Position numbers and translations under genes: made by a program. DNA of 64,000 nt. Source: Rhodocyclaceae bacterium. GTDB taxonomy: Bacteria; Pseudomonadota; Gammaproteobacteria; Burkholderiales; Rhodocyclaceae. The stretch lies in assembly GCA_019455325.1 (NCBI GenBank), contig JACFMQ010000003.1, positions 419,572 through 483,571 of the forward strand, in the 5' to 3' direction. Below the pieces are notes generated by a model that did not search any database, was not told where the DNA came from, and worked only from the letters and a program-made list of their open reading frames with translations. Positions 42,944-61,194 of this stretch are shown here, in pieces (positions within the stretch are counted from its first letter, which is position 1; every line of letters begins with the position of its first letter).

Positions 42944-42953
42944 GAACGAAAAC

Positions 42954-43053: not shown

Positions 43054-43086
43054 TGTTCCAGTCGTCCAGACGAAGCCTGACCGCCG

Positions 43087-43734
43087 ATGCACATCCCGGA
43101 CGGCTTCCTCTCGCCGCAGACCTACCTGCCGGCCTACGCCCTCGCCGCCGGCGCCTGGGCCTGGGCGGCGCGCGGCCTGCGCGCGCGCCTCGACGAGGAA
43201 CTGGTGCCGCGCCTGGCGGCGATGACCGCGCTCGCCTACGGCCTCGGGCTGGTCATGGTGCCGGTGCCCGGCGGCACCTCCGGGCACGCGCTCGGCGTCG
43301 CCATGCTGGCGCTGCTCTTCGGCCCGCGGCTGGCCTTCCTCGCCTACAGCCTGGTGCTCGTGCTGCAGTCGCTGCTCTTCGGCGCCGGCGGCATCACCGC
43401 GCTGCCGGTCAATGCGCTGGCCATGGGGCTGGCCGGCGCTTTCGCCGCCGTCGCCGTGCACCGGGCGCTGCGCGGCATCAACGAGACGGCGGCGGTGGCG
43501 CTCGCCGCCTGGGTCTCGGTCGTCGTCTCCGCGGCGCTCGTCGCGCTGGTCCTCGGCGCGCAGCCGCTCGTCGCGCAGCGTGCGGACGGCACGCCACTGT
43601 TCTTCCCCTTCGGCTTTTCCATCGTGCTGCCGGCGGTGCTGCTGCCGCACCTCGCCATCGGCGTCGGCGAGGCGCTGCTCACCGTCGCCGTCTGGCGCTT
43701 CGCCCGGCGCCGGCGCTGGAGGGCGGCGGCGTGA
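43087..43734 (+). CDS. nikM: NikM, substrate-binding membrane component of nickel ECF importer
   Basis: NikM/CbiM is the membrane S-component that binds the metal ion. The 215-residue protein begins with the diagnostic MHIPDGFLS, whose N-terminal amine and His2 bind the ion. It has six or seven membrane segments. Cobalt (CbiM) and nickel (NikM) forms are close; NikR, hydrogenase and NikKL neighbours favour nickel. Its stop overlaps the nikQ start. Confidence 0.9.
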   Translation: MHIPDGFLSPQTYLPAYALAAGAWAWAARGLRARLDEELVPRLAAMTALAYGLGLVMVPVPGGTSGHALGVAMLALLFGPRLAFLAYSLVLVLQSLLFGAGGITALPVNALAMGLAGAFAAVAVHRALRGINETAAVALAAWVSVVVSAALVALVLGAQPLVAQRADGTPLFFPFGFSIVLPAVLLPHLAIGVGEALLTVAVWRFARRRRWRAAA

Positions 43735-44282
43735 CGCCGGCCGGCTGGCTCGCCGCCTACCTCGGCGCCGTCGTCGCCGTCGGCTTCGTGCATTCGCCGG
43801 CGGCGCTCGCCGCGCTCTTCGCCTGCGCGCTCGCCGCCGCCGGCCGGCCGCGCTGGCGGCTGCTGCGGCGCGCGCTCGTCGCCGTGCTCGCCTTCAACCT
43901 CGCGGTCAGCGCCGGCTACGCGGCGGTGGCGCTGTGGCGCGGCGACTTCGCCGCCGACTATCTGCTGCTGGTCAACCTGCGCGTGCTGCTGCTCGTCTTC
44001 CTCGGCTTCTGGTTCGTCGCGCGCGTGAACGTGCTCGCCGCCTTCGCCTTCTCGCCGACGCTGACGCTGCTGGCGACGCTGGCCGTGGTGCAGGCGCAGC
44101 ACTTCGCCCGCCTGGCGCGCGACTTCCGGCTCGCCTTCGTCAGCCGCAACCCGGCGCCGGCGCGGCTGGCCGACCGCGCGCGGCACGCCTCGGCGCAGGC
44201 GGCGACGCTGCTCGACAAATCGGTCGCCGGCGCCGCCGAGACGGCGCTGGCCATGCGCTCGCGCGGAGGCTTCGATGATTGA
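43731..44282 (+). CDS. nikQ: NikQ, transmembrane coupling component
   Basis: NikQ/CbiQ is the T-component of the ECF importer that joins the ATPase to NikM. The 183-residue protein starts with GTG overlapping the nikM stop (GTGA), has four or five membrane segments, and ends in a helix with ALAMRSRGGFDD, which carries the conserved coupling motif (A-R-G). It is shorter than many CbiQ proteins at the N-terminus. It overlaps nikO by eight bases. Confidence 0.88.
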   Translation: MTPAGWLAAYLGAVVAVGFVHSPAALAALFACALAAAGRPRWRLLRRALVAVLAFNLAVSAGYAAVALWRGDFAADYLLLVNLRVLLLVFLGFWFVARVNVLAAFAFSPTLTLLATLAVVQAQHFARLARDFRLAFVSRNPAPARLADRARHASAQAATLLDKSVAGAAETALAMRSRGGFDD

Positions 44283-45057
44283 GCTGGAGAACGTCGCCTT
44301 CGCCTGGCCGGACGCGCCGCCGGCCTTCGCCGACCTGACGCTGACCATCGGCCAAGGCGAGAAGGTGGTGCTGCTCGGCGCCAACGGCTGCGGCAAGTCG
44401 ACGCTGCTCAAACTGCTCGACGGCCTCGTCGCGCCGACCGCCGGCGCCTACCGCTACGCCGGCGAAGCGGTGACGCCGGCGGCGCTGAAGGCGCGCGGCC
44501 GCGGCCGGCGCTTTCGCGCCGAGGTGGCGCTGCTCTTCCAGCATCCGGAGGCCATGCTGTTCAATCCGACGGTGTTCGACGAGGTGGCCTACACGCCGCG
44601 CCGCCTCGGCCTCGCCGACGCCGAGGAACGCGCCCGCCGCTGGCTGGCCGCGCTCGATCTGGCCGCGCTCGCCGACAAGGCGCCGTTCACCCTCTCCGGC
44701 GGCGAGAAGCAGAAGGTGGCGCTGGCCGCCGTGCTCGCCGTCGAACCGCGGCTGCTGCTGCTCGACGAGCCTTCCGCCAGCCTCGATCCGCGTACCGCCG
44801 GCTGGCTGGTCGACCTGCTGCAGGACGGCCCGGCGACGGTCATCGTCAGCACGCACAACCTGTCGCTCGCGGCGGAACTGGGCGAGCGCTGCCTGATCCT
44901 CGGCGAGAATCGCCGGCTGATCTACGACGGCCCGGTCGAGGCGGCACTCGCCGACCTCGATCTGCTCGAACGCGCCAACCTCGCGCACCGCCATCGCCAC
45001 CGCCACGGCGGCCATGCGCATGCGCACGCGCACCGGCACGACTGGGAAAGTTCCTGA
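44275..45057 (+). CDS. nikO: NikO, ATPase of the nickel ECF importer
   Basis: NikO/CbiO drives nickel uptake with ATP. The 260-residue protein has Walker A LLGANGCGKSTLL, a Q-loop (LLFQHPEAMLF), signature LSGGEKQKVALA and Walker B LLLLDEPSASLD. It ends in a tail with about ten histidines, HRHRHRHGGHAHAHAHRH, which may hold nickel near the transporter. It is the last gene of the unit and converges on the nosL gene. Confidence 0.93.
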   Translation: MIELENVAFAWPDAPPAFADLTLTIGQGEKVVLLGANGCGKSTLLKLLDGLVAPTAGAYRYAGEAVTPAALKARGRGRRFRAEVALLFQHPEAMLFNPTVFDEVAYTPRRLGLADAEERARRWLAALDLAALADKAPFTLSGGEKQKVALAAVLAVEPRLLLLDEPSASLDPRTAGWLVDLLQDGPATVIVSTHNLSLAAELGERCLILGENRRLIYDGPVEAALADLDLLERANLAHRHRHRHGGHAHAHAHRHDWESS

Positions 45058-45101: not shown

Positions 45102-45596
45102 TCAGTCGAATTTGCCGCGATCGAGTCTTTCCGCGATTTCCTTCGTCACCTGCTCGAAGCGCAGGACGCGTCTACCTTTGTGATCCTTCATGAAATCTTC
45201 GGCGTCGGCCTGTGTCGCCAGCGGGATCAGTTCATGGCCCATCGGCCCGAGAACGTCGGAGCCGGTCACGTAGAGGGCCTTTCTGGCGTCGATCCGGGCA
45301 AGGTTGTAGAAATCGGTGACGGCGATGGCGCGGATATCCTCGATCCGGTGGTCCGGCGCGTACTTCGCGTAGTCGAACAGGTACTTGAACAAGTCCTTGG
45401 CGCCGTCGAAGTGGTGGGCGTGACCATCCTTGTAGAGCACCGTCGCCGTCCAGTTCGGGTACTTCGAGACGAGCATGCCGCACACCGGGCAGAGATCCCT
45501 GGCGCCCGGATTCGGAATGTCGATCAGCGCCTCCTGGGCACCGGCCGCAGCGGCCAGCCCCAGGAAAAGCAGCGCGGCGAGGAAGCGGCGGCGCAT
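45102..45596 (-). CDS. nosL: NosL-family copper-binding protein
   Basis: NosL proteins bind Cu(I) and help metallate copper enzymes such as nitrous oxide reductase. The 164-residue precursor has an N-terminal signal (MRRRFLAALLFLGLAAAAG) and the metal motif LCPVCGMLVSKYPNW followed by KDGHAHHFDGAKDLF. There is no lipobox. It is the last gene of a minus-strand copper operon, six bases after the NosL-like Tat gene. No nosZ is in the window, so the enzyme it serves is unknown. Confidence 0.88.
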   Translation of the reverse strand: MRRRFLAALLFLGLAAAAGAQEALIDIPNPGARDLCPVCGMLVSKYPNWTATVLYKDGHAHHFDGAKDLFKYLFDYAKYAPDHRIEDIRAIAVTDFYNLARIDARKALYVTGSDVLGPMGHELIPLATQADAEDFMKDHKGRRVLRFEQVTKEIAERLDRGKFD

Positions 45597-45601: not shown

Positions 45602-46213
45602 TCAGCCCGGCTTCTTCTGTTCCGCCGCCCGCCTGCGGCGTTCGGCACGGTTCCGGCGGATCACGGCGACATCGCCCGCCATGTCGAGATAGCTCTCGCG
45701 CAGCGCGTCGTCGAAACGGCCGAGGCTGCCGCCGTGCTTCACCTGGAATTCCTTCGCCCGGTCGGACGAGGCGAAGGAATGCTTGCTGCGCCGGGTCATC
45801 GCGTGCTTCAGGTCGGCGCCGATCAGGTAGATCAGACGGTCCACCGGGAACAGCGGACACGGCGCCTCGGCCGAACCGTAATCCGGCCCCCAGATATCCT
45901 TGGGTTCGCGGTCGATGTTCAGTCCCAGGCTGAGCGACAGGCAGTGGATCGAACAGACGCCGTCGACCAGATCGTCGCCGTACTGCACCAGCATGCGGGT
46001 GCGGTGGTGCTCCTTGCGGTCCATGCCGCAGTACGGGCACTTCGGATATTTTTCCAGCTCGCCCTGCAACGGGTTGGCGTCCGGTGCCTTCTTCGGCACG
46101 AACTGCGCCGGTGTACCGTCGACGCTGCAGGCGGACGCAGGCTGGGCCCGGGCGTTCCCGGCGGCAAGCCCGCCGGCGGCGAGGGAAAGCTTGAGCAGAT
46201 CGCGGCGCTTCAT
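45602..46213 (-). CDS. Tat-exported NosL-like protein, paralogue A
   Basis: The 203-residue protein starts MKRRDLLKLSLAAG, a twin-arginine signal, so it is exported folded. The mature part has the NosL-type motif CPYCGMDRKEHH, then MLVQYGDDL and CSIHC, giving four cysteines, a methionine and histidines able to bind copper. A basic C-terminal helix ([15 protein letters not shown]) ends it. Two close relatives are at 55340 and 56807. Unlike these, it carries an inserted GPDYGSAEAPCPLFPVDR segment. Role inferred: periplasmic copper capture or delivery. Confidence 0.8.
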   Translation of the reverse strand: MKRRDLLKLSLAAGGLAAGNARAQPASACSVDGTPAQFVPKKAPDANPLQGELEKYPKCPYCGMDRKEHHRTRMLVQYGDDLVDGVCSIHCLSLSLGLNIDREPKDIWGPDYGSAEAPCPLFPVDRLIYLIGADLKHAMTRRSKHSFASSDRAKEFQVKHGGSLGRFDDALRESYLDMAGDVAVIRRNRAERRRRAAEQKKPG

Positions 46214-46298
46214 TGGGTCCTCCCTGTGTTCCGAATCGATCCCGGCCGGAATATTAGCGGTCGGCGATAATTCCGGGATGCGGCATTTGGCCGCATGC

Positions 46299-47015
46299 TC
46301 AGAACACCAGCTTCTGCATCACGCGAAAATAGGCCAGCCCCTGCCACAAGGTCGACAGGCCGAGGGCGATCACGAAAACGCCCGCTCCTTTCTGCAGCAG
46401 GCCACGCACCCGGGGCCCGAGCCTGCCGAAGAGCACGCTCGCCAGCAGCATCGACGGCAGCGTACCGGCGCCGAAGGCGAGCAGCAGCAGCCCGCCTTCA
46501 GGCACCGAGGGCGCCGTCGTCGCCTTCACCGCCATCGCCATGGTCATCGAGCATGGCATCAGGCCGTTGACCAGCCCGGCGATCGCCGCACCGCGCACCG
46601 CCCCCTTTTGCGCGGCGCCGGCGAACTGTCGGCGCAGCCAGCGCGCCGGTGCGAAGCCGACCGTCAGCTTCAGCGGCGACGCCCCGAGCAGTTCGAGGCC
46701 GAGCAGGACCACCAGAAATCCGGCGCCGATCTGCAGCACGCCCTGCGCGAGGCCGATGCAGCCGGTCGCCACCAGCGCCGCGCCGAGCGCCGCCGCCAGC
46801 AGGCCGATCGTGCCATACACCGAGACGCGCGCCGCGTGATAGGCGAGATAGGGAAACAGCCCCGCCGCACCGCCGGCGACCTGCTTCGCGCGAATGAAGT
46901 AGCCGCAGACGAGGGCGCCGCACATGCCGAGGCAGTGGCCGCTGCCGAGCAGCCCGGTCATGAAGGCCGCTACGTAGCCGAAGCGCTCGACGACGTGGTG
47001 CGCGTGCTCCTCCAC
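46299..47015 (-). CDS. TauE/SafE-like membrane protein of copper operons
   Basis: The 238-residue protein has six membrane segments and GLLGSGHCLGMCGALVCGY near the N-terminus, a Cys/His-rich motif of the group often found beside copper P-type ATPases and cytochrome oxidase assembly genes. A second motif is NGLMPCSMTMAMA. The name sulfite exporter is only inherited; a role in copper or redox transfer across the membrane is more likely here. It lies six bases after the ATPase gene. Confidence 0.8.
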   Translation of the reverse strand: MEEHAHHVVERFGYVAAFMTGLLGSGHCLGMCGALVCGYFIRAKQVAGGAAGLFPYLAYHAARVSVYGTIGLLAAALGAALVATGCIGLAQGVLQIGAGFLVVLLGLELLGASPLKLTVGFAPARWLRRQFAGAAQKGAVRGAAIAGLVNGLMPCSMTMAMAVKATTAPSVPEGGLLLLAFGAGTLPSMLLASVLFGRLGPRVRGLLQKGAGVFVIALGLSTLWQGLAYFRVMQKLVF

Positions 47016-47020
47016 GCCGG

Positions 47021-49477
47021 CTAGCCCTTGCGCAGGAGGCGCAGCGAATTAACCACCACCGATACCGAACTTGCCGCCATCGCCGCCGAAGCGATCATCG
47101 GATTGAGTCGGCCGGCCGCCGCCACGGGAATGGCGACGGTGTTGTAGCCGAGCGCCCAGAACAGGTTCTCGCGGATGATGCGCATCGTCCGCCGCGAGAT
47201 CGAAAGCGCGTCGGCGGCCTTGCCGAGGTCGCCGCGCACCAGCGTCAGGTCCGCCGTCTCGACGGCGACGTCGGTGCCGCCGCCGACCGCCATGCCGACG
47301 TCCGCGGCGGCCAGCGCCGGCGCGTCGTTGATGCCGTCGCCGACCATCGCCACGGTCTCGCCCGCCGCCTGCAGCGCACGCACCAGTTCGAGCTTGCGCG
47401 CCGGCGTCGCCCTTGCCTCGACACGGTCGATGCCGACCAGCGCCGCGACGTGCCGTGCCGCGGCCTCCGTATCGCCGGTCGCCATCACGGTCTTGATGCC
47501 GAGCCGGTGCAAGCGGGCGATCGTCGCCTGCGCATCGGTGCGCGGCCGGTCGGCGATGGCGAAGAAAGCGGCAAGCCGATCGTCCAGCGCCACCAGCACC
47601 GGCGTCTGCCCGTCCGCGCCGGCGCGGACGACGGCGTCGGCAAACGGCGTTGCGTCGATGCCGTGCCGCGCCAGCCATTCGGCGTTGCCGGCCAGCACCG
47701 TGCGGCCGTCGGCGGTGGCCGCGATGCCATGCCCCGGTTCGGCGCTGAAATCGACCACCGGCCTGTCGGCGGCCACCCCGGCGCGCTGCGAGAATTCGCG
47801 CAGGGCACGGGCGAGGAAATGTTCCGAGCCATGCTCGGCGCTCGCCACCAGCGCCAGCAGTTCCCCATCCGGCAGGCCGGAGCGGTTCTCCCAACCGGCA
47901 ACGGCCGGCCGACCTTCGGTGATGGTGCCGGTCTTGTCGAAGACGACCGTCGTCACCTTGGCACCGGTTTCCAGTGCCGCGCCGTTGCGGATAAAGATGC
48001 CGCGCCGCGCCGCGGCGCCGGTACCGGCCATGATCGCCGTCGGCGTCGCCAGACCGAGCGCGCACGGACAGGCAATCAGCACCACAGCGACGGCGTGCGC
48101 CAACGCGTGCGTCGCCGGCGCGCCGCCGAGCAGCCAGCCGCCGGCGGTGGCGCCGGCGATGCCCATGACGCCCGGCACGAACGCCGAGGAGATGCGGTCG
48201 GCGAGCTTCTGCACCGGCAGCTTGGCGTTCTGCGCCTCGTCGACCATGCGCACGATGTGAGCCAGTACGGTATCGCGCCCGATCGCCGTAGCGCGCACGA
48301 GCAGCGTGCCGTTCTGGTTCAGACAGCCGCCGATCACCCGGTCGCCGGCCGCCTTTGCGACCGGGATGCTCTCGCCGGTGAGCATCGCCTCATCCACCGC
48401 CGAAGCGCCCTCGACCACCTCGCCATCGGTCGGAATCCGCTCGCCGGGGCGTACGCGCAGGAGGTCGCCGGCGACGACGGCCTCGGCATCGACGACGAGT
48501 TCGATGCCGCCGCGCAGCACCACCGCCGTCGCCGGTTGCAGTTCGATCAGTTGCCGGATCGCCTCGCCGGCCTTGCCCTTGGCCCGCTCCTCCAGGTAGC
48601 GGCCGAGCAGCACGAAGGCGACGATGGAGGCTGCGGCTTCGAAATACAGGAAATCCGTCTTCCGGTGCGGCAGCAGGCCGGGCAGGCTGTAGAGATAGGC
48701 GGCGCCGGCGCCGAGCGCGATCAGCGTGTCCATGTTGGCGCCGCGCTGCTGCGCGAGTCTGATCGCCTTCTCGAAGAAGGGCCGGCCGGCACCGAAGACC
48801 ACCGGCGTCGCCAGCGCGAACTGCAGCAGACGCAGGCCGTAGTGGTGCGGCATCGCCATGCCCAGAGCCATCAGAGGCCCGGTCAGTGCCGCGGCGGCGA
48901 GGAAACGCTTCCTCGCCGACTCTCGCTGCGCCTTTTCGCGCTCAACGAGGAAGCGGCGCTGCGCCAGCGTGTCCATCGGCCGCGGCGTATAACCGAAGCG
49001 TTCGATCAGACCGAATACTGCATCGCGGTCTAGCCAGCCATCCACCGCAGCGGTGCCGGCGGCGAAATTCACGCCGGCCGATCGCACGCGCGGGTCGCGC
49101 TTCAGCGAAAGTTCGATCAGCGCCGCGCAGGAAGCGCAGGTCATGCCCTCGATGGCCAGCGAGACATGTCGCACCGGCCCGTCGGGCACCCCGGTCGGAG
49201 CCGGCTTCGCCGACCGCGGCGCGCGCACCAGCGCGGTCGCGATATGCGCAACGGCATCGACCAGTTCGTCGCGGCCGATCTCCTCCGGCGCAAAATGCAC
49301 GGCGAGCGAACCGAGGCGCGCTTCGCCGCGCACCTCGCGCACCGCCGGCCGCTTGCGCAGCAGGATTTCGAGCAGGCAGAGGCGCTCTTCGTCCCTGGCC
49401 AGCGCCGGCACGACGACGCGAATGCGCCGCGTCAGCGCGTGGACGACACGCACCTCGACCGGCACCGTGGCGTTCAC
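47021..49477 (-). CDS. copA: Copper-transporting P1B-type ATPase
   Basis: This enzyme pumps Cu(I) across the inner membrane, either for efflux or for assembly of copper enzymes. The 818-residue protein has an N-terminal ferredoxin-like domain without CxxC (1-80), a true HMA domain with GMTCASC, eight membrane segments with the [10 protein letters not shown] ion site, the phosphorylation motif DKTGTI, and the hinge [10 protein letters not shown]. The GTG at 49477 overlaps the upstream stop (GTGA) and is preferred to earlier in-frame starts. CcoI/FixI and CopA types are close; the NosL-like neighbours suggest supply of copper enzymes. Confidence 0.92.
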
Positions 49478-50190
49478 GGCCTCGCCCCGCCGGCGCCCTG
49501 CCCTGCCGGGGCCGGCAGCCCGGCCGCCGGCGCAGCGGCCTTCCCGGACGCAGCCAGCGCGCGCTTGCGGTAGCGCACCAGCAGGAAGGTGAGATAGAAC
49601 ACCGCCAGCCACGCATCGGCATGACGGCCTGGGAAGCGCAGCCACTGCTGCGTGATCCTGTTCCAGTGCACGCGGATCAGATAGAAGGCGAGCACGTCGT
49701 TGGCAAAATTGATGACCGCGCGTTCATTCACGAGCGCCGGATCGAACACCTTCCGCCACGGCGTCGGCCTGCCTCCGGGCGTCAGGAACTGCGCCTGCAT
49801 CGCGTGCGACGCGGCCAGCGCCCGCTCGTTCGCGTAGCGCAGCCATTGCAGCGCGCGCTCGCGCCAGGCCCCGATACCGATACGCGCCGCCCGATCGCCC
49901 GCCGTCGACGCGCATCCGGCCGCGCCGCCGCTCGCAGCGGCCAGCGCCGCATCCAGCGTCGCCTTCAAGACCAGCGCGATCTGCCGGTGTCCGTTCGCGA
50001 TCGGATCGAAATGCACCGACAGTTTGGCGCCGCGCAGGTCGAGACGCACCCCGCGCACGCCGGGCAGGGACAGCAGCGCCGCCTCGATCACGCGCGCCGA
50101 GCCGGGATTGCCGAAGGCCGCCGGCAGAGCCAGGCGGAGATGATCATCGGCCTTCGCCAGCACGAAGACGCGGCGGGCATGTTCGCTCAT
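49474..50190 (-). CDS. HMA-like domain membrane protein of copper operon
   Basis: The 238-residue protein has an N-terminal ferredoxin-like fold ([19 protein letters not shown]) resembling the cysteine-less HMA domain at the start of the neighbouring ATPase. Then comes an amphipathic middle and a C-terminal hydrophobic segment near 185-205 ([19 protein letters not shown]). No metal-binding CxxC is present. It overlaps the ATPase gene, so the two are coupled. A role as a partner or regulator of the pump is inferred. Confidence 0.65.
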
Positions 50191-50219
50191 GCGGAACTCC
50201 TGCTGAAAACGCGCGACGA

Positions 50220-50582
50220 TCAGGGAACGGCGGGCGGCTCGGCTGCGGCGGCGGCCTTGGCTTCCGCCTCGTTGCCTTCCTTCGCCTCGGCGATCAGGTC
50301 GTCCAGACTCTCCTTCTGCTGCGCGGCGAAATCCTTGCTCATGTCGGTCAGCCTCACCACCGCCTGGACGATCTCCTTGCGGTACCTGTAGCCGAGATAA
50401 CCGGCTGCGGCGCCGACCGCGGCGCCGGCCGCGAGCAGCAGCAGCGGGCTGCGCAGCAGGGCGCCGACCGGCTTGGCGCCGAGCGCCCGCGCGGCAACGA
50501 ATCCGGTCGAGGCCATCATCATCGGCTTCATTATGTGCGGCACGTTTTTCGCCGCCTCGTGCATCATCGGTTGCGTCATCAT
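50220..50582 (-). CDS. Small membrane protein with glycine-rich helix
   Basis: The 120-residue protein has a methionine-rich N-terminus (MMTQPMMHEAAKNVPHIMKPMMM), a membrane segment of small residues (LLLLAAGAAVGAAAGYLGYRY) and a charged coiled region ending in an Ala/Glu/Pro tail. The methionines could touch Cu(I). I do not recognise the family; it resembles YtxH-like proteins in layout. It overlaps the TRASH-like gene by four bases. Confidence 0.65.
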   Translation of the reverse strand: MMTQPMMHEAAKNVPHIMKPMMMASTGFVAARALGAKPVGALLRSPLLLLAAGAAVGAAAGYLGYRYRKEIVQAVVRLTDMSKDFAAQQKESLDDLIAEAKEGNEAEAKAAAAAEPPAVP

Positions 50583-50773
50583 CGATCTCCTTTTCCGCCC
50601 TGGCCGTCGCCGGCCGGGCCATTCGATCCGTCGTCGCCGACGTCGTTCAGCATCTGCCAGATACCCTTGCAGCCCTCACAGCAGAAGCGCCTCTCCTCGC
50701 CCGCCCGCCGCACCGTCCAGACCCGTGCGCCGATCTCCAGGCCGCACAGATCGCAGATGTCCCGCTCGCCCAT
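50579..50773 (-). CDS. Small TRASH-like metal-binding protein
   Basis: The 64-residue product has ICDLCGLEIG and RFCCEGCKGIW, the cysteine pairs of the metal-binding domain found at the N-terminus of CcoI/FixI-type copper ATPases. Here it is a separate gene in an operon with a copper ATPase lacking that domain. This suggests a split domain that carries copper to the pump. A Gly/Asp-rich tail follows. It begins one base after the TlpA gene ends. Confidence 0.75.
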   Translation of the reverse strand: MGERDICDLCGLEIGARVWTVRRAGEERRFCCEGCKGIWQMLNDVGDDGSNGPAGDGQGGKGDR

Positions 50774-50774
50774 C

Positions 50775-51287
50775 CTACGGCTTCGGCAGCAGGGCCGCCG
50801 CCTCCCGCGCGAAGGTCGCCTCGTCGGCCTCACCGACGATCTTGCCGCGCACCACGCCGCCGCCGTCGACGAAGAAGGTGGTCGGCAAGCCGACGACGCC
50901 GTAGCGTCTGGCGATCTCCGAGGATTCGTCGAGCAGGACCGGATAGGTGACGCCGATCTTCTCCGCGAAGGCACCCGCTGTCGCCCTGTCCTGCCCGGCG
51001 TTGATCGCCAGGACGGTCAGGCCCGCCTCCCGGTGCCGCCGGTAGACCGACTCGACCGCCTTCATCTCGGCCTCGCAGTATCGGCACCAGTCGGCCCAGA
51101 AACGGATCACCGCCGGCCGGCCGGCCATGCCATCCGGGAAGTCGACCTCGCCGCCCGCCAGCCCGGCCGCGCGGAAGGCCGGCGCAGGCGCGCCAAGGTT
51201 GACGTTCGCAGCGGGCGCGCCGCCGTCACAGGCAGCGACGAGCGACAGGACTGCGCCCGCCAGCAGGATTCTCGACATCGTTCTCAT
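50775..51287 (-). CDS. TlpA-like thioredoxin lipoprotein
   Basis: This periplasmic thiol-disulfide protein may keep copper-site cysteines reduced. The 170-residue precursor has a lipoprotein signal with LVAAC lipobox, a thioredoxin fold with active site WADWCRYC, and the cis-proline loop GLPTTFFVD. The ATG at 51287 or 51278 is possible. It is the first gene of the minus-strand copper operon and is divergent from the sigma-factor gene. Confidence 0.87.
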   Translation of the reverse strand: MRTMSRILLAGAVLSLVAACDGGAPAANVNLGAPAPAFRAAGLAGGEVDFPDGMAGRPAVIRFWADWCRYCEAEMKAVESVYRRHREAGLTVLAINAGQDRATAGAFAEKIGVTYPVLLDESSEIARRYGVVGLPTTFFVDGGGVVRGKIVGEADEATFAREAAALLPKP

Positions 51288-51434
51288 CCGGCATCCATCC
51301 CAGGTTCTTTCCTTTCGATTCTATTGCCCCGGACCGGGCGCCGCCACCCCCGAGGCCGCGACCTTATGCCGCATTGTTCCGCCTTGTCGACGCCGATTAA
51401 GATCGACGGTCCGATCCCGGTAGCCCGCCATGCC

Positions 51435-51929
51435 ATGCTCGGCAACGACGCCATTACGCATCTGTATCTCCGCCACATCGCCGCCCTGCGCGGCTTCCTC
51501 GCCGCCCGCGTCGGGTGCCGCGAAATCGCCGGAGAACTGGCGCACGAGAGCTTCGTACGCATGATGACCTGCAAGAACGAAGCCATCGCCGATCCGCGCG
51601 CCTTCCTCTTCCGCGTCGCCGGCAACCTGGCCGTCGACCACTGGCGGGCGAATCCGGTCGGCCCCGATCGCTTCCTGGACATCGATGAACACGAGCACCT
51701 CGCGTCGGAAGCGCCGGGGCCGGAGCGGTACGCCGCGGCAAGACAGCAGCTCGATCGCCTGCGCAGAGCGGTGGACGGTTTGCCGTCGAGGTGTCGCGAG
51801 GTTTTCGCCCGCCACAAATTCGACGGTGCGACACAGGCCGAGATCGCGACCGAATTCGGGATATCGCAGAACGCGGTGGAGAAGCACCTGATCCGCGCCC
51901 TGGTCCGGCTGCGCCGGTGCCTGGACTGA
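51435..51929 (+). CDS. FecI-type ECF sigma factor
   Basis: This sigma factor directs transcription of a TonB receptor gene in response to its substrate. The 164-residue protein has region 2 (YLRHIAALRGFLAARVG, then RAFLFRVAGNLAVDHWR) and region 4 (LPSRCREVFARHKFDGATQAEIA, then AVEKHLIRALVRLRRCL). An in-frame ATG at 51366 could extend it by 23 residues. The next gene is the FecR partner, one base away. Confidence 0.9.
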   Translation: MLGNDAITHLYLRHIAALRGFLAARVGCREIAGELAHESFVRMMTCKNEAIADPRAFLFRVAGNLAVDHWRANPVGPDRFLDIDEHEHLASEAPGPERYAAARQQLDRLRRAVDGLPSRCREVFARHKFDGATQAEIATEFGISQNAVEKHLIRALVRLRRCLD

Positions 51930-51930
51930 C

Positions 51931-52881
51931 ATGGAACAGGCGGCTCCACGGCAGGATTCGAAGGGCACCGGGGGCGCCCTGTCGAAGCAGGCCGCCGCAT
52001 GGTTCCTGCGCCTGAACGACCCGGCATGCACCGACGAGGACCGCCGCCGGTTCGATGCATGGCTCGGCGCCTCGGAACGCCACGCCGAGGAGTACCGGGC
52101 CTTCCGGCGGCTCTGGCAGCGGCTCGACGGGCTCGGAGAAGACGGCCCGGTCCGGCGGCGCCGCGCCGTCGGCATCGTCGGCTTTCTGGCAGCCTGCGCA
52201 CTGCTTCTCGGCATCGTCTTCGCCGGACCCCGGCCAGCCGCTCCGGAGCAGACAATCGCCACCGCCACCGGCGAGATCCGGCGCGTAACGCTGGCCGACG
52301 GCTCGATCATCGATGTGAACGCCGATTCGCGCATCGCCGTGTCGGTCTCCGACGACGCGCGACGCATCCGGGTCGAGCGCGGTGAGGCGGTGTTCGTCGT
52401 CGCCGACGACTCGCGGCGGCCGTTCGAAGTGCTCGCCGGCGCGGGCATCCTGCGCGACATCGGCACGACCTTCGGCGTCGCCGTCGAAAACGGGCTGGTT
52501 TCGGTCAGCGTCATCGAGGGCGCCGTCGAGGTCCGTCTTCCGGAAACCGGAGCGAAGGCCACGGTTGGCGGCGGCGAGCGCCTCGCCTTCTCCCGCTCCG
52601 CCATCTCGCCGCCGGAGCGCTTCGACGGCGAGGCGGCGACCGCCTGGCGCTTCGGGCGCTTCGAGTTCCGCGATACGCCGCTGCACGAAGTCGTGCACCA
52701 GATCAATCGTCACCATGCCCGGCCGACGGAACTCGCGGACCCGTCTCTCGGACGCTTGCGCGTCAGCGGCGCATTCAGCATTGCCGACCGACACGGCCTG
52801 CTGACGGCGCTTGAGGCCCTCTATCCGATCCGCCGGGACGAAAGGGGCGAAGCGACCCGGCTCGCGAGGGCGGAAAGATAG
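51931..52881 (+). CDS. FecR-family anti-sigma regulator
   Basis: FecR passes the signal from the outer-membrane receptor to the sigma factor. The 316-residue protein has the N-terminal FecR pattern (AAAWFLRLNDPACTDEDRRRFDAWL), one membrane segment (about 78-95), and a periplasmic FecR domain with TLADGSIIDVNADSRIAV and FRDTPLHEVVHQINR. It sits between the sigma factor and the receptor, the standard order. Confidence 0.92.
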   Translation: MEQAAPRQDSKGTGGALSKQAAAWFLRLNDPACTDEDRRRFDAWLGASERHAEEYRAFRRLWQRLDGLGEDGPVRRRRAVGIVGFLAACALLLGIVFAGPRPAAPEQTIATATGEIRRVTLADGSIIDVNADSRIAVSVSDDARRIRVERGEAVFVVADDSRRPFEVLAGAGILRDIGTTFGVAVENGLVSVSVIEGAVEVRLPETGAKATVGGGERLAFSRSAISPPERFDGEAATAWRFGRFEFRDTPLHEVVHQINRHHARPTELADPSLGRLRVSGAFSIADRHGLLTALEALYPIRRDERGEATRLARAER

Positions 52882-52891
52882 CGCTGAAAAA

Positions 52892-52924
52892 ACTGTCAGG
52901 GTTTTCCGCGTTTTTACGTCTTCC
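52892..52924 (+). promoter_or_regulatory. Possible FecI-type promoter of the receptor gene
   Basis: ACTGTCAGGGTTTTCC (52892-52907) and CGTCTTCC (52917-52924) lie 54 bases before the receptor. A CGTCTACC sequence lies at a similar place before the receptor of the second FecIR module. Assignment to the ECF sigma is inferred. Confidence 0.4.
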
Positions 52925-52977
52925 CCATTGAGCGCCCCCTGCGGACGGCGCCTCCATGATCTGAAAGGGGAAGAAAA

Positions 52978-55329
52978 ATGCACGGCCGAATCCGCCTCGC
53001 CACCCTGCTGGCGATCCTGTCCTCACCAGTGCTGGCCCAGCAGGCCGCGAACATCCGCATCGAAGCGCAGGACATGCCGTCCGCGCTGCACAGTCTGGCA
53101 AGCCAGGCGGGCATCCAGTTGCTGTTCGACGCCGACGACCTCAAGGGCGCCCGGACGAACGGCCTGCGGGGCACCTTCTCCGGAGACGAGGCGCTGCGTC
53201 GCCTGCTCGACGGTTCGCGCTTCGGATTCAAGGTCACGGGGAAGAACGCCTACGTCATCCACCCCCTGCCGAAGCCGACCGCTTCCCGGCCGGACGCCGT
53301 GCTCTCCGAGGTGCTGGTGACGGCGAGCACGCGCACCCCGAATCCGCTCGACCGCACGCCGGCCTCGATCAGCCTCGTCGAGCGCGAAGACTTCGAGGAA
53401 ACGCAGGCGGCGACGGTCTCGCAGGTCATGAAGAAATTGCCGAACGTCGAATTCGGCGGCGGACCGCGCGTCAACGGCGAAATTCCGGCCATCCGCGGCA
53501 TCACGGGTCCGTCGATCACGCTGCTGGTGGACGGCGCACGCCAGAACGATACGACCTCCCCCGGCCTGAAATCGCCGCTTTTCATCGATCCGTATTTCCT
53601 GCAGCGGGCCGAGGTCGTGCGCGGCGCGTCGTCCTCGCTCTACGGCTCGGGCGGGGTCGGCGGCGTCATGGCGTTCAGCACCTATTCCGCCCGCGACCTC
53701 CTCGAAGCAGGGCGCAGCGTCGGCGGCGGCGCCAGGCTTGCCTACAGCGACGCCGACCGGTCGACGCGACTGAACGCACGCCTGTACGGCGGCAACGACA
53801 CCATCGACGGCCTGGTCGCCGTCGGCCTGAGCGACTGGAACAAGATCCGGCAGGGCGGCGGAAGGCATCTCGATCCGAACGACGGCGACGCCTCGACGGG
53901 ACTGGCGAAGATCGGCATCCGGCCGACGCCGGACAGCCGCATCGAGCTCTCCCATCAGTTCTACAGCAGCGACAACCTGCAGGTGAACAACGCCCAGGCC
54001 ACCCAGTACCGGACGGCCAACCTGCCGATCACCATGCCGGCGGTGCAGAAAGTGCACGTCGACCAGTTCACCACCATGCTCAAGGGCCGGATCGGCGACG
54101 TCGACGGTGCGCCGGCACTTTCCGCCAGCCTCTACAAGACCGGATTGAAATACGTCTTCGACCGTAGCCCGGACCCGACGATCACGAACGTTCTCTACAG
54201 CGACACCGAAACGGAAACCGTCGGCGGCAGCCTGCAGGGAAGCCGGATTTTCGACGGCGGCGGCTGGGGACGGCACCGGGTCACCGCCGGCTTCGACACC
54301 TTCGAGGACAGGCAGTCGGCGGTGGCGGCGACCGCGGCGAACCCTTCCGCGCCGAGCACGGTCACGCGGGACGGCACCCGCCGGGCGAGCGGCTGGTTCG
54401 TCCAGGACGAGATCGCCTTCGGCGGCGGCTGGCGCCTGACCCCCAGCCTGCGCGCCGACCGCTACAGCGCCTCGCTCGCCGGCGGCAGCCTGCCGGACAA
54501 CAGCGAAAGCCGCGTCTCGCCGAAGGTTTCGCTGTCCTGGACGGAAGGCGGCCTGATGCTCTTCGGCAACGCCGGCGAGGCATTCCGGGCGCCGACGGTG
54601 GTCGAGCTCTACCAGAACTTCGCCGGCTTCGGCCTGACCAACTTCCTGCCGAACGCCTCGCTCCGCCCGGAAATCGACCGTTCGCTGGAACTCGGCGCCA
54701 ACTATGCCGGCCGCCACCTGCTGTCCGAAGGCGATTCCCTGAAGGTCCGCGCCTCCTGGTTCGGGTCGCGCGTGACCGACCTCATCCACAGCGTGAACCT
54801 GGGCGGTATGACGCCGTCCGGCTCCACTCCCGCGCAGCAGGCCGGTTTCGCCGCCAATTGCGCGGCGACCGGCCTGAACTGCAAGCTCCAGTACCAGAAC
54901 GTCCCCGACGCCCGGCGCACCGGCGGCGAAATCTCGGTCGATTACCGGCTCGGCCAATGGCAGTTCAACGCGGCCTACAGCCGGGTCCGGGTCGAGAACC
55001 GCGACGACGGCGACAGGTTGTTCTCGCCGCCGGACAAGATCGTCGTGCAGATTCGCCGGCAGCTTCCCGCCCAGAACATGACGGTACTCTGGAACAGCAC
55101 GGGCGTGGCGGCGCAGGACTACGACTCGACCGTTCTGCGCCGCCGCTCCGGCTACGCGACCCACGACGTCTTCCTGAGCTGGGCGCCGCCCGGATGGAAG
55201 GCCAGGCTGGACGTCGGCGTCGCCAATCTGTTCGATCGTCGCTACTCGGCCTACCAGTCGGGCAACGCGTATGCCTACACCTATCAGGAAGGCCGCAGCC
55301 TGAAGCTGTCGCTCGGCGCCGATTTCTGA
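52978..55329 (+). CDS. TonB-dependent transducer receptor with STN domain
   Basis: This outer-membrane receptor both imports its substrate and signals to FecR. The 783-residue precursor has a signal peptide, an N-terminal signalling (STN) domain (IRIEAQDMPSALHSLASQAG), a TonB box (VLVTASTR), a plug (EIPAIRGITGPSITLLVDGA, with VVRGASSSLYGSGGVGGV) and a barrel. It groups with hemin or siderophore receptors by pattern. The next genes encode a NosL-like Tat protein and a SUMF1-fold protein, so a copper or copper-chelate substrate is worth considering. Confidence 0.9.
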   Translation: MHGRIRLATLLAILSSPVLAQQAANIRIEAQDMPSALHSLASQAGIQLLFDADDLKGARTNGLRGTFSGDEALRRLLDGSRFGFKVTGKNAYVIHPLPKPTASRPDAVLSEVLVTASTRTPNPLDRTPASISLVEREDFEETQAATVSQVMKKLPNVEFGGGPRVNGEIPAIRGITGPSITLLVDGARQNDTTSPGLKSPLFIDPYFLQRAEVVRGASSSLYGSGGVGGVMAFSTYSARDLLEAGRSVGGGARLAYSDADRSTRLNARLYGGNDTIDGLVAVGLSDWNKIRQGGGRHLDPNDGDASTGLAKIGIRPTPDSRIELSHQFYSSDNLQVNNAQATQYRTANLPITMPAVQKVHVDQFTTMLKGRIGDVDGAPALSASLYKTGLKYVFDRSPDPTITNVLYSDTETETVGGSLQGSRIFDGGGWGRHRVTAGFDTFEDRQSAVAATAANPSAPSTVTRDGTRRASGWFVQDEIAFGGGWRLTPSLRADRYSASLAGGSLPDNSESRVSPKVSLSWTEGGLMLFGNAGEAFRAPTVVELYQNFAGFGLTNFLPNASLRPEIDRSLELGANYAGRHLLSEGDSLKVRASWFGSRVTDLIHSVNLGGMTPSGSTPAQQAGFAANCAATGLNCKLQYQNVPDARRTGGEISVDYRLGQWQFNAAYSRVRVENRDDGDRLFSPPDKIVVQIRRQLPAQNMTVLWNSTGVAAQDYDSTVLRRRSGYATHDVFLSWAPPGWKARLDVGVANLFDRRYSAYQSGNAYAYTYQEGRSLKLSLGADF

Positions 55330-55339
55330 GGAGCCCGGC

Positions 55340-55948
55340 ATGGACAGACGCGATCTGCTCAAACTCTCCCTGCTCGCCGGCGCCGCCATCGGGGCGCCGG
55401 CGGCGCGCGCCGACTGCCATCGGGAGACCGATGCCACGCCGGCCCAGTTCCTGCCGAAACTGCCGCCGGACGCGGCGCCGCACGAGGACGACCTCGACAA
55501 ATACCCGAGCTGCCCCTATTGCGGCATGGATCGCCGCTACAACCACCGCGCGCGCATGCTGATCCATTACGGCAACGACGTGCCGGACCCGCTCTGCTCG
55601 ATCCACTGCGGCGCGATCAGCCTGGCGCTCAACCTCTCGCTCGACCCGAAGGCGATCTACGTCGCAGACAACGCGGTCGCTGCCGATCCGCGGCCGCTGA
55701 TCGAGGTCGGCAGGGCGACCTTCCTTGTCGGCAGCGACCTGCCCGGCGTGATGACGTGGAACAGCAAGGTCGCCTACGGCAGCGCGGAAGCGGCACTCGC
55801 CGCGCAGGGCGTACACGGCGGACAGCCGATGGATTTCCAGCAGACGCTGAAAGTCGCCTTCGCCGATCTCGCCGACGACCTCGAACGGATGCGCAAGGGC
55901 CGGGAGGAACGACGGCGGCGCGCCGCCGGGAAGGCGGCCGGGAAATGA
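55340..55948 (+). CDS. Tat-exported NosL-like protein, paralogue B
   Basis: The 202-residue protein begins MDRRDLLKLSLLAG, a twin-arginine signal. The mature part has CPYCGMDRRYNHRARM, then IHYGNDVPDPLCSIHC, the same metal-ligand pattern as the copy at 45602. It ends with an Arg-rich helix (RKGREERRRRAAGK). It starts 10 bases after the TonB receptor stop and overlaps the next gene by four bases, so it belongs to the FecIR-controlled unit. Copper binding is inferred from the NosL likeness. Confidence 0.8.
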   Translation: MDRRDLLKLSLLAGAAIGAPAARADCHRETDATPAQFLPKLPPDAAPHEDDLDKYPSCPYCGMDRRYNHRARMLIHYGNDVPDPLCSIHCGAISLALNLSLDPKAIYVADNAVAADPRPLIEVGRATFLVGSDLPGVMTWNSKVAYGSAEAALAAQGVHGGQPMDFQQTLKVAFADLADDLERMRKGREERRRRAAGKAAGK

Positions 55949-56715
55949 AACGCCGGACGATGCGGTCGAATGCGGTTTCCCTGGTGCTTCTCCTCTGCTG
56001 TACCGTCGGCGTTCGCGCCGAAACCTTCCGCGACTGCGCGGAATGTCCGGAGATGGTCCGTCTGCCCGCCGGCGCCTTCCGCATGGGCACCCCCGGCCGC
56101 CCCGGACAGGAGCCCGCGCACGGCGTCGCGCTCCGCGCCTTCGCCATCGGCAGGCACGAAGTCACGCAAGGCCAGTGGAAAGCCCTGATGGGCGGAAATC
56201 CTTCCCGCGCCGCCGCCTGCGGCGACGATTGCCCGGTCGAGCGGGTGAGCTGGCACGATGCGCGGAAATTCGTCCGCCGGCTGAGTGAAAAAACCGGCCG
56301 CGCGTATCGTTTGCCGTCCGAGGCCGAATGGGAATACGCCTGCCGGGCCGGCATGGACGACGACTGGTGCGGCGGCAACGAGTTCTCCCGCGTTGCCTGG
56401 GGCGGCGACGCGCGCGGCGGGCCGCGCCCCGTCGGCGGCAAGCAGGCCAATGCCTGGGGGCTGCACGACATGAGCGGCAACGTCTGGGAATGGACGCAGG
56501 ATTGCGCGCACCCCAACTACCACGGCGCGCCCGGAGACGGCTCCGCGTGGGAAACCGGCGGCGACTGCGCCAGCCGCATCCTGCGCGGCGGTTCCTGGCT
56601 CAGCGGGCCGCAGTACGGGCGCATCGGCATCCGCTTCGGATTCTCGGCCGATTACCGGAGCGGCGACTTCGGATTCCGCGTGGCGGCGACGATCGAAGAC
56701 GCTCCGGATGAATAG
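55945..56715 (+). CDS. SUMF1-fold protein without the catalytic cysteines
   Basis: The 256-residue precursor has a signal peptide and the formylglycine-enzyme-type fold (MVRLPAGAFRMGT, GRHEVTQGQWKALMG, RLPSEAEWEYACRAG, DMSGNVWEWTQDC). In true formylglycine-generating enzymes a pair of copper-binding cysteines follows the RGGSW segment. Here RILRGGSWLSGPQYGRIG has none, so that reaction is unlikely. Such proteins occur as NirV beside copper nitrite reductases. Extra cysteines near the start (DCAECPEM) and in AACGDDC may form disulfides. It overlaps paralogue B and ends the unit. Confidence 0.82.
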   Translation: MKRRTMRSNAVSLVLLLCCTVGVRAETFRDCAECPEMVRLPAGAFRMGTPGRPGQEPAHGVALRAFAIGRHEVTQGQWKALMGGNPSRAAACGDDCPVERVSWHDARKFVRRLSEKTGRAYRLPSEAEWEYACRAGMDDDWCGGNEFSRVAWGGDARGGPRPVGGKQANAWGLHDMSGNVWEWTQDCAHPNYHGAPGDGSAWETGGDCASRILRGGSWLSGPQYGRIGIRFGFSADYRSGDFGFRVAATIEDAPDE

Positions 56716-56806
56716 CCTCCGATGCCGGGGATGACGATGCTCCTGGATGGCATCGATGAACATCGCTCTTGTCGACGCCGTCGGCCTAAGTCGGCGAGTG
56801 CGCGGC

Positions 56807-57415
56807 TCACCTCTTGTGCTGCCGTTCCATCGCGCGCTTGCGGTACCTTTCGCGCAGCTCGCGAATCATCGCCACATCGGCAGCCATGTCGGTGTAGGCC
56901 GCCAGCAGCGCCTGGTCGAAGTTCGCCGGTTCGCCACCGTTGGCGGCCTGTGCGGCTTCGGCCGCTTCGGCGCTGCCGTAGGCGACCTTGCTGCGCCGGG
57001 TCATCACGCCTTTGATGCCGCTGCCGACCAGGAAGATGGCCTTGCCGACTTCCACCAGCGGCTTGACGTCGCCGGCCACGGCGTTGTCGCCGACGTAGAT
57101 CGCCTTCGGCTGGCGGTCTATGTTGATCGACAGGCTTATGGCCGCGCAGTGCAAGGAGCATGTGCCGTCGGCGACATCGTCGGCGTAATGCACCAGCATG
57201 CGCGAATGGCTGTACTGCTTCCGATCCATGCCGCAATAGGGGCACTTTGGATATTTCTCGATGTCATTCTCGGCGGCCTTCGGATCGGCCGCCCTCTTTG
57301 GCACGAACTGGGCGGGGGTTCCGTCCGTCGCGCAGGCGGGCTGTGCCTGCGCGCCGCGAGCGGCCAGGCCGGTGCCAGCGGCGAGGGAGAGTTTCAGCAA
57401 ATCGCGGCGATCCAT
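56807..57415 (-). CDS. Tat-exported NosL-like protein, paralogue C
   Basis: The 202-residue protein starts MDRRDLLKLSLAAG and has CPYCGMDRKQYSHSRM, MLVHYADDV and CSLHC, the same ligand pattern as paralogues A and B; over its whole length it is closest to B. The start at 57415 has AAAGGAAC upstream; a longer frame to 57475 lacks a Tat start. It is convergent with the SUMF1-fold gene, 91 bases away, so two related genes face each other around it. It seems to be transcribed alone or behind the hydrolase gene. Confidence 0.8.
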   Translation of the reverse strand: MDRRDLLKLSLAAGTGLAARGAQAQPACATDGTPAQFVPKRAADPKAAENDIEKYPKCPYCGMDRKQYSHSRMLVHYADDVADGTCSLHCAAISLSINIDRQPKAIYVGDNAVAGDVKPLVEVGKAIFLVGSGIKGVMTRRSKVAYGSAEAAEAAQAANGGEPANFDQALLAAYTDMAADVAMIRELRERYRKRAMERQHKR

Positions 57416-57496: not shown

Positions 57497-58757
57497 TCAG
57501 GCTTCGACCACGCCTTTCAGGGCATCGAGCCATGGAATCCATCGGGGGTCGGGGCCTGCGTAGGCGTTCCAGGTTGTGTCGTTGCATACGTAGGCCACCG
57601 CGGTGCCGCTCTCGGGATGCGCGAAGCCTATGCGCCCACCCATTCCCGGCTGGCCGAACGAACCCGGCCCCAGCATGGGCGAGGCTTCGTAGGGCAGTTC
57701 GTACCCCAAGGAAAAGCGCTGCTTCAATGGCGGCGGCAGGTCTTTCGAAAACGCCGGGGAGTACAGGCCCCGCAAGAAAGGAGGATAGGGAACTCGCGGC
57801 AATGAATCGGTCCGCGGCGCGCGCGCCCGTTCCATCGTTTCAGGGCGCAACAATCTCACGCCATCCACCTCGCCAATCAGGGCCGCGTACATCCTCGCCA
57901 GGGAGCGGGCATCACTGACGCCGTTGCCTGACGGGATTTCCGCAACCAGCGCCTCGCGAAGGTTCATGAACCAGATGAACGGATTCCCTGCGAAACTGCT
58001 ATTGAAAATCGGTGCCACCCGGCCTTCCTCGCTCAGCGGCAAGCCGATCCACGTGCTCAACCCCAGCGGCTTCGCGACTTCGTCGGCCAGGAAGCGGCCG
58101 ATGGATTTCCCCGAAACCCGTCGAACGATTTCTCCAACAAGATACCCATGCGTGGCCGAGTGATACTGATATCCCGTTTCCGGCGTCCACAGGGGTTTCA
58201 TGGCCGCCAATGACGAGGTGCAGCGCTCCCAATCGACCAGGCCCAGCAACTGGATGCCGCTGTCGGGCGGAAACCACGACAATCCCGACGTATGGGCCAG
58301 AAGGGACGAGACGGGTATGTGCTCCTTGCCGTTGGCCGCGAACTCGGGCCAGTAGCGCGATACCGGGGCATCGATATCGACCAGCCCACGCTCCGCAAGC
58401 ATATGCAGACAGGTTGAGACCAGCCCTTTGGCGGCGGAAAATATCACGGTGACGGTTTCGCTGGTGTAGGGCCGATTGTTGGCCCTGTCCCGACCGCACC
58501 ACAGGTCGACGACCACCTTCCCATGCCGATAGACGCATAGTTGTGCCCCCCCCCGGATCGTTGGCCTGGCCGGCGGCGAATGCCTCGCGCACGCCCTCGT
58601 AGCCCCTCGCAACCGTGCCTTCGACCTTGACGGTCTTGCTTGCTGGCGGCGGCGCCTCCGCCCTGGCTTCGGACGCAAGGCCGCCGATCTGGCTGCCCAC
58701 GCCCAATGCGGCGGCAGCGGTCATGAAGCTCCTGCGGTTCGGTTTTTCCATGGTCAT
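57497..58757 (-). pseudogene. Beta-lactamase-fold serine hydrolase, frame broken at G9
   Basis: This is an EstA/class C beta-lactamase-like esterase with a Tat-type signal (NRRSFMTAAAALG). The catalytic SxxK is in IFSAAKGLVS and the tyrosine motif in YQYHSATHGYLVGE. The N-terminal part (start ATG 58757, with GGAG upstream) and the rest lie in different frames that meet at a run of nine G on the coding strand (58554-58546). Loss of one G would join them as NDPGG-AQLCVYRHGK. This is either a sequencing slip, a recent mutation or a phase-variable tract. It follows a TonB receptor in a FecIR module. Confidence 0.8.
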
Positions 58758-58803
58758 TCCGGGGTTCTCCAATGCGGCCTTCCGTCCTTTCTCTGCCATG
58801 ACG

Positions 58804-61168: not shown

Positions 61169-61194
61169 CTTTGGGCGACGATTCACCCAACCTG

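Follow-up and report, generated by a model that had tools for sequence, protein, structure and literature searches.

Gene content of the window and its receptor-NosL units

The window is a stretch of 64,000 nucleotides from Rhodocyclaceae bacterium (GCA_019455325.1, contig JACFMQ010000003.1, positions 419,572 to 483,571, forward strand). It is located on contig C31 of a genome of 4.46 Mb, G000 (G, genome; C, contig; L, locus). Three of its genes encode NosL-like proteins of 202-203 residues (open reading frame translation) with a twin-arginine translocation (Tat) start, here called Tat-NosL 1 to 3 (Table 1). Tat-NosL 2 and 3 belong to units A and B, in which genes for an extracytoplasmic function (ECF) sigma factor of FecI type, a FecR regulator and a TonB-dependent receptor precede the NosL gene. 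The three open reading frames and their Tat start had been predicted from the sequence alone and are found at the predicted coordinates; the predicted layout is completed here by the strands (genes 1 and 3, minus; gene 2, plus).

Five proteins of G000 match the Pfam family NosL (PF05573): the three Tat-NosL of the window, the ordinary NosL encoded 3′ of gene 1 and a fourth Tat-type copy, Tat-NosL 4, encoded on contig C1. The latter belongs to unit C (FecI-FecR-receptor-NosL4-TonB-ExbB-ExbD), upstream of which SCO1, small protein, FtsX permease, ABC ATPase, membrane protein and RegA-like genes follow one another. The ECF sigma factor, FecR and STN-domain receptor genes of units A and B are arranged in the order of a FecIRA-type system according to Pfam, which also identifies an STN domain in receptor C.

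The original prediction placed gene 1 in a copper ATPase operon and gene 2 in an operon encoding a sigma factor, FecR, a TonB receptor and a SUMF1-fold protein, and both placements agree with the domain matches. Gene 1 belongs to a minus-strand series in the order TlpA, HMA-like, copper ATPase, DsbD_2, Tat-NosL and ordinary NosL. Gene 2 lies in the plus-strand series 51435-56715. Gene 3 had been described as facing this operon. It is indeed opposed to it, and is also the last gene of a second FecI-FecR-receptor-hydrolase series on the minus strand, unit B (62837 to 56807). Unit A is divergent from the gene 1 series and unit B converges on unit A. The copper island to which gene 1 belongs is split in two in G000 (window; contig C1, with unit C), so that the units adjoin both halves.

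Table 1. Features of the gene 1 series and of units A and B, and fourth Tat-NosL gene of G000. Positions are those of the window unless a contig is given. The cut-off of Pfam NosL is 24 bits.
Feature	Coordinates	Strand	Evidence
Ordinary (non-Tat) NosL, partner of gene 1	45102-45596	-	Pfam NosL, 112.3 bits
Tat-NosL 1 (island type)	45602-46213	-	Pfam NosL, 45.3 bits
DsbD_2-type membrane protein	46299-47015	-	Pfam PF13386
Copper P-type ATPase	47021-49477, start assumed (open frame to 49645)	-	TIGR01511, 565.6 bits (cut-off 397)
HMA-like protein	49474-50190	-	No Pfam match; name given by position
TlpA-type thioredoxin	50775-51287	-	Pfam AhpC-TSA/Redoxin
Unit A, FecI-type ECF sigma factor	51435-51929	+	Pfam Sigma70_r2, r4_2
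Unit A, FecR anti-sigma regulator	51931-52881	+	Pfam FecR, DUF4880
Unit A, promoter-like motif type 1 (TGTCAGG-N16-CGTCT), before receptor gene	52894-52921	+	Read from units
Unit A, TonB-dependent receptor with STN signalling domain, heme-receptor-like	52978-55329	+	Pfam; TIGR01785; PDB match
Unit A, Tat-NosL 2 (own clade)	55340-55948	+	Pfam NosL, 35.8 bits; 100/100 clade in both trees
Unit A, PvdO/SUMF1-fold protein	55945-56715	+	Pfam FGE-sulfatase, 167.5 bits
Unit B, Tat-NosL 3 (island-type sequence), last gene of unit	56807-57415	-	Pfam NosL, 42.9 bits; trees
Unit B, Tat-type serine hydrolase, frame broken in window	57497-58799	-	Two overlapping frames; PF00144 in L008 relative
Unit B, TonB-dependent receptor with STN domain	58804-61128	-	Pfam
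Unit B, promoter-like motif type 3 (CAGGTTGGGTGA...CGTCTACC)	61161-61194	-	By eye; common to unit A of L010
Unit B, FecR	61195-62253	-	Pfam
Unit B, FecI	62250-62837	-	Pfam
Tat-NosL 4	G000:C1:159627-160184 (= L006:11628-12188)		187 amino acids, CVVCSMDR; 3′ of FecI-FecR-TonB receptor

The C-terminal part of another TonB receptor is found at the edge of the window, upstream of unit B (63137-63973, minus strand; by eye, with a weak tblastn match). On the plus strand, positions 39608-45057 encode a TonB receptor, a DUF4198 protein, a small protein, CbiM, CbiQ (by eye) and CbiO, a nickel/cobalt-type energy-coupling factor set that is convergent with the island. A nickel/cobalt link was considered and rejected: at the other compared loci, neither unit A nor unit C has such a set as neighbour.

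Units A, B and C in related genomes

Scans covered 395 genomes of the family and 399 genomes of an order-wide draw; up to eight candidates were scored per genome and the counts are lower bounds. NosL2, the clade of Tat-NosL 2, is found in at least four of the 395 family genomes (at least 399 bits; next score, 308), including that of L010. Together with L008, L009 and L018, this gives seven genomes, all of which have kept the core made of receptor, NosL2 and PvdO-like genes. FecI and FecR genes precede this core in the six genomes whose contig reaches this region. The copper island adjoins unit A in five of the seven (window, L009, L010, L018 and L136).

NosL4 is found in at least nine of the 395 family genomes, G000 included, and in at least three of the order-wide draw, all of them among the nine. 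The order FecI-FecR-receptor C-NosL4 is found in all eight further genomes; the units lie within the island or adjoin it, and several insertion points are seen among them. Unit C is associated with the copper island in all nine family genomes, and in 10/10 when L009 is added. In L006, a further FecI-FecR-receptor series follows the TonB-ExbB-ExbD genes of unit C (L006:14097-17922); its receptor gene runs off the contig end and no NosL gene was seen in it. RegA/RegB-like two-component genes (names given by the author; L006:6641-7510, clusters 14 and 22) recur beside the island and unit C, cluster 22 being HisKA/HATPase according to Pfam.

Unit B is the weakest case among the units. Its receptor is 79% identical to that of L008 when the first 120 residues are removed, and the hydrolase relative of L008 is encoded by a single open frame of 434 amino acids (87% identity over the piece searched). 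The broken frame of the window results either from an assembly error or from a recent loss. The NosL of unit B would have been drafted or replaced separately in the window and in L008, as judged from their sequences.

The NosL2 and NosL4 clades each have 100/100 support (both trees for NosL2). The first tree does not include the truncated duplicate L084_2m; the second does not include the NosL2 of L136 and has only 22 further island-type rows. A single origin of the receptor-linked NosL was rejected: when NosL2 and NosL4 are constrained to one clade, the log-likelihood falls by 12.6 units (approximately unbiased test, p-AU 0.029). The rejection is modest, and the grouping was named after the first tree had been seen. 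The receptor-linked NosL clades, two in number, are thus probably of separate origin.

The genes of unit A differ in conservation. Among five genomes (window, L008, L009, L010 and L018), identity is 71-83% for NosL2 and 41-72% for the receptors once the first 120 residues are removed; PvdO-like proteins show 59-64% identity with the one of the window (five genomes compared). Identity within unit A is just 29-48% for FecI and 22-44% for FecR (five genomes). Higher values are found between units: 59% between the FecI of L008 unit A and G000 unit C, 57% between the FecI of L009 unit C and window unit A, and 59% (FecI) and 61% (FecR) between L010 unit A and window unit B.

Three types of promoter-like motif were recognized by eye between the FecR and receptor genes of 16 of 18 units. 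Type 1, TGTCAGGG-N15-CGTCT, is found in eight copies of unit C and two of unit A, and L018 unit A has a variant of it. Type 2 was seen in G000 unit C, L008 unit A and L133 unit C, and type 3 in unit B of the window and L010 unit A. The type of motif follows the type of FecI rather than that of the receptor, and these motifs may be the promoters read by FecI. FecI, FecR and motif types have, to judge by these identities, been swapped between units, and the receptor-NosL cores stayed.

Type 1 was searched for in 11 genomes, those of L009 and L018 (type 1) and G090 and G029 (other types) being left out. It is present at the receptor gene in nine carriers, as expected of a motif read from the same units, and its rarity elsewhere is the only real test. 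A single match was found outside (G347). The motif of unit A is the sole type 1 match of G000. None was found in G303 and G337, which have no unit, and the reversed-pattern control gave no match in the 11 genomes.

The number of FecR with a DUF4880 domain is one in G326, G112, G347, G090 and G029, two in G384, G253, G358, G259 and G293, and four in G020. Ten of these 19 FecR (13 genomes) belong to units A or C; for the two FecR of G293, no placement was obtained. In G326, G112, G347 and G090 (unit C) and in G029 (unit A), there is no DUF4880 match other than the FecR of the unit. No DUF4880 FecR was found in G303 and G337, which belong to the same genus and have the island but no unit.

A chance neighbourhood in a receptor-rich genome has to be considered, since G000 is dense in such genes (65 receptor plug domains, 23 FecR genes) and the NosL genes of unit B differ between genomes. 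Three of the four Tat-NosL genes of G000 belong to FecI-FecR-receptor units, for which a rough post hoc probability of 2e-4 to 5e-4 was obtained. A FecR gene lies within the 20-kb stretch around NosL2 or NosL4 in all ten other carriers, which encode one to four FecR each, against about 0.10/10 expected; these carriers are related to each other and were picked for NosL2 or NosL4, not for FecR. Chance is thus disfavoured for units A and C and conceivable for unit B; as a general explanation, it is highly improbable.

Tat-NosL family, copper island and N2O reductase

The homologue scan of public genomes used two search patterns, one of which was CPYCGMDR. The best 80 of 215 relatives were analysed; 41 of the 80 loci have full flanks. 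An ordinary NosL gene is located directly 3′ of the Tat-NosL gene, within 1.5 kb, in 72 loci, and an island gene (copper ATPase, DsbD_2, TlpA or HMA-like) within 8 kb in 53. A FecR gene is found within 8 kb in six loci, one of which, L084, is on the same contig as L009. A lack of association with TonB or copper genes in homologues, which would have refuted the original prediction, is therefore seen only in part: the FecIR/TonB association is a trait of particular sub-clades and not of all Tat-NosL. Among the 395 family genomes, at least 84 match Tat-NosL, 12 of them weakly (E 2.6e-10 or worse) and at least 72 clearly.

The copper island includes genes encoding SCO1, a small protein, an FtsX permease, an ABC ATPase, a membrane protein without Pfam match, TlpA, an HMA-like protein, a copper ATPase, DsbD_2, Tat-NosL and NosL. 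This set was derived from clustering, Pfam (which names SCO1) and tblastn; individual loci do not have all the genes. Some loci also have genes read by the author as PCuAC, NosZ, NosD, NosG or NosY. A conserved membrane protein of about 333 amino acids, without Pfam match, is encoded beside the FtsX-type ABC pair of the island (33 of 82 sources; L006:5618-6622, with a CPFC motif in L006).

Two further arrangements concern receptors. TonB-ExbB genes, frequently accompanied by ExbD and a receptor, are divergent from Tat-NosL-NosL in L012, L019, L047, L062, L071, L075, L081, L082 and L085; some of these sets include DUF4198-like and Fer4_5 proteins, and they are possibly a second receptor link without FecIR. 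In L052 (11400-16400), a FecI-FecR-receptor series directly follows the ordinary NosL gene of the island, and no NosL gene of its own was seen.

The copper ATPase next to unit A matches CopA-type models, as would suit units devoted to copper export, detoxification or sensing in which NosL would be a periplasmic copper sink. TonB receptors are importers, and the island holds delivery factors, namely SCO1 (Pfam) and NosL, to which the author's reading adds PCuAC and nos genes at some loci; such an explanation appears quite improbable.

The alignment of Tat-NosL has 88 rows (residue numbering after gene 2). C58, C61, M63, C86, S87, C90 and M138 are present in all of them, CPYCGMDR in 85 and CSxHC in 86, and arginine and lysine average 38% of the last 20 residues. 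The conservation of CPYCGMDR and CxxCxM comes partly from selection, as CPYCGMDR was a scan pattern; that of CSxxC is not affected. The row starts were set by a script seeking a twin arginine, so its presence in 88/88 rows indicates a twin arginine near the start and does not prove the translation start. The three Tat-NosL of the window have no canonical lipobox after the twin-arginine start (by eye), and no lipoprotein anchor is thus recognized. The NosL4 of L129 (Pfam NosL, 39.3 bits) carries a lipobox-like MAGC.

Ordinary NosL has two conserved cysteines, one of the membrane anchor and one of the CxM motif, and two strictly conserved methionines; the CxM motif has a role in copper binding, and NosL was required for N2O (nitrous oxide) reduction under copper limitation (excerpts of PMC6530538). 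Tat-NosL resembles this copper chaperone of N2O reductase by its family profile, its CxM motif and its second conserved methionine. It differs by a twin-arginine start instead of a lipoprotein signal, by the additional invariant CSxxC, and by two sub-clades encoded in receptor operons. The second invariant cysteine pair beyond CxxCxM, where ordinary NosL has a single conserved cysteine besides that of the anchor, could mean that copper has been given up by the paralogues in favour of another metal or of a thiol-reactive ligand, brought by the receptor and bound through CSxHC. The NosL4 clade, in which CVICNMDR mostly replaces CPYCGMDR, would fit such a change. CxxCxM is kept in 88/88 rows, and a departure from copper is considered distinctly unlikely.

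Contig C24 of G000 encodes two clade II NosZ and NosD according to family models, and no NosL match was found on this contig. The two NosZ genes are nearly equal and about 8 kb apart (L095, G000:C24:388500-405000); two close NosZ copies are also found in G347, G384, G029, G019, G080 and G023. Among genomes taken from the listing of the family scan (a non-random choice), 26 of 31 with Tat-NosL have NosZ (E up to 1e-100) vs 8 of 20 without (Fisher p 0.002); above the clade II cut-off, the numbers are 22/31 and 4/20.

Proposed function and comparison with known systems

The reading preferred here, with a probability a little better than even, is that the units serve the receptor-signalled uptake of a metal chelate, with a NosL paralogue as periplasmic acceptor, and feed the N2O reductase pathway, copper being the most probable metal. 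The STN-domain TonB receptor would bind an extracellular metal complex, presumably a chelate produced by other organisms. FecR would relay the signal to FecI, leading to transcription of the receptor-NosL operon (with the PvdO-like gene in unit A) and of little else. The complex would enter the periplasm, where the Tat-exported NosL paralogue may take the metal by the sulphurs of CxxCxM and CSxHC and the PvdO-like protein may act on the ligand. The metal, most likely Cu(I), would then be passed to the island (SCO1, TlpA, DsbD_2, copper ATPase, Tat-NosL and NosL), which would load N2O reductase and possibly copper oxidases as well. What the sequences establish is the gene content, the clades, the position at the island, the recurrence of the promoter-like motifs and the conservation of the sulphur residues. 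The protein family and the island make copper the best candidate for the metal. As the receptors have no OprC motif and resemble heme or siderophore receptors, a chelate is favoured over free copper. A route for copper or a copper chelate had already been suggested by the original prediction: its receptor-NosL link, FecIR control and tie with copper genes stand, whereas copper and acquisition are still inferred.

The receptors themselves could also import iron siderophores or heme-like compounds. In that case, the NosL helper would free or reduce the metal or remove blocking copper, and the proximity of the island would result from a joint need in low-oxygen respiration. Receptor A has a ShuA-type heme receptor as closest PDB match, and a PvdO relative adjoins the receptor A-NosL2 genes. 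Pyochelin- and pyoverdine-type ligands bind copper too, a point counted here in favour of the iron or heme explanation. Heme receptors carry a histidine in the FRAP-NPNL stretch; none was found in this stretch in the seven receptor A sequences. The copper island, present with unit A in 5/7 genomes and with unit C in 10/10, also argues against import of iron or heme, which is considered doubtful.

Uptake of a copper chelate has several points against it, the first two of which are also those that favour iron or heme. Receptor A exceeds the cut-off of the heme receptor model TIGR01785 (375.8 vs 316.85 bits), which receptor B does not (67.4 bits). For receptor C, the closest matches are FptA and FpvA, the receptors for pyochelin and pyoverdine. 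The CxxxM and HxM motifs of OprC are found in none of the 12 receptors checked. No copper island was found within about 10 kb on either side of unit A in L008 and L135, and two of the 18 units, L009 unit A and L008 unit B, showed by eye none of the three motif types. In unit B, the NosL proteins of the window and L008 are not orthologous (48% identity) and the hydrolase frame of the window is broken. A TonB receptor lies within 8 kb in 21 of the 80 Tat-NosL loci vs 0.23 per locus expected from the receptor density of G000; this is no clear excess, and a general receptor enrichment of Tat-NosL was not found. The receptor-NosL pairing is partly a product of the search, as the units were found through NosL and relatives of receptors A or C without NosL would escape. 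Five of the 31 Tat-NosL genomes have no NosZ match, including the unit carriers G090 (86% complete) and G259 (92%); the island would therefore probably supply further copper enzymes, unless these genomes are incomplete.

A more specific and only tentative version of chelate uptake, rather unlikely as a whole, is a piracy of foreign copper chelates for N2O reductase. The FecIR-signalled receptors would import methanobactin- or pyochelin-like chelators made by other organisms, the PvdO-like enzyme or the hydrolase would alter the ligand, and the double-site Tat-NosL would strip Cu(I). If this were true, denitrifiers would tune N2O consumption to foreign chalkophores, NosL paralogues would have been drafted at least twice, and regulators would have been exchanged as modules.

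The outer-membrane copper route to N2O reductase is unsettled, NosA being lacking in some organisms and its role disputed (excerpts of PMC8610252, PMC7558416). The units name candidate receptors, a regulator and a periplasmic acceptor for this route, and the carriers that have a single FecIR system make a clean test possible. If the proposed uptake is true, chelators of neighbours could help to decide whether N2O, a greenhouse gas, is destroyed or emitted.

The PvdO-like protein of the window shares a DCxxCPEM start with PvdO, which acts in pyoverdine maturation and is its best PDB match (5hha, E 7e-37). It differs by its score, below the cut-off of the NCBIfam PvdO equivalog (158.7 vs 500 bits), and is therefore not classified as PvdO; its gene also belongs to a receptor operon. 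Formylglycine-generating enzyme has two active-site cysteines after RGGSW. No cysteine was found after RGGSW in the five PvdO-like proteins compared, which are thus not assigned to this enzyme.

The units resemble MbnIRT of the Methylosinus methanobactin system, in which FecI/FecR-type regulators precede a signalling-domain receptor for a copper chelate (excerpts of PMC3621798). They differ by the NosL paralogue that follows the receptor, MbnIRT being compared by its published description. Methanobactin synthesis by G000 was considered and set aside, no MbnB (PF05114) match being found in this genome; PF05114 matches are found in 6 of 14 genomes, including G303 and G337, which have no unit.

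Like OprC/NosA, a proposed copper supplier for N2O reductase, the receptors are TonB receptors of the outer membrane (excerpts of PMC8610252, PMC7558416). Unlike it, they are preceded by FecIR genes. Identity with OprC/NosA was rejected, both by the absence of the CxxxM-HxM motifs and by the TIGR01778 score of receptor A (45.3 bits, cut-off 472.45). In Bizionia argentinensis, a receptor and a NosL are listed under locus tags close to each other, with a P-type ATPase and CcoG as neighbours; the receptor is OprC-like with CxxxM-HxM, NosL is a lipoprotein, and FecIR is not mentioned in the excerpts seen (PMC11213822).

No description of a FecIR-receptor-NosL unit was found in the portions of open PMC papers searched. 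The claim that no system of this composition had been described stands, within this literature, for the combination and does not extend to its parts. NosL, FecIRA signalling, copper-chelate receptors, a NosA-type receptor and the receptor with NosL of Bizionia were all known, and it is their combination that appears to be new.

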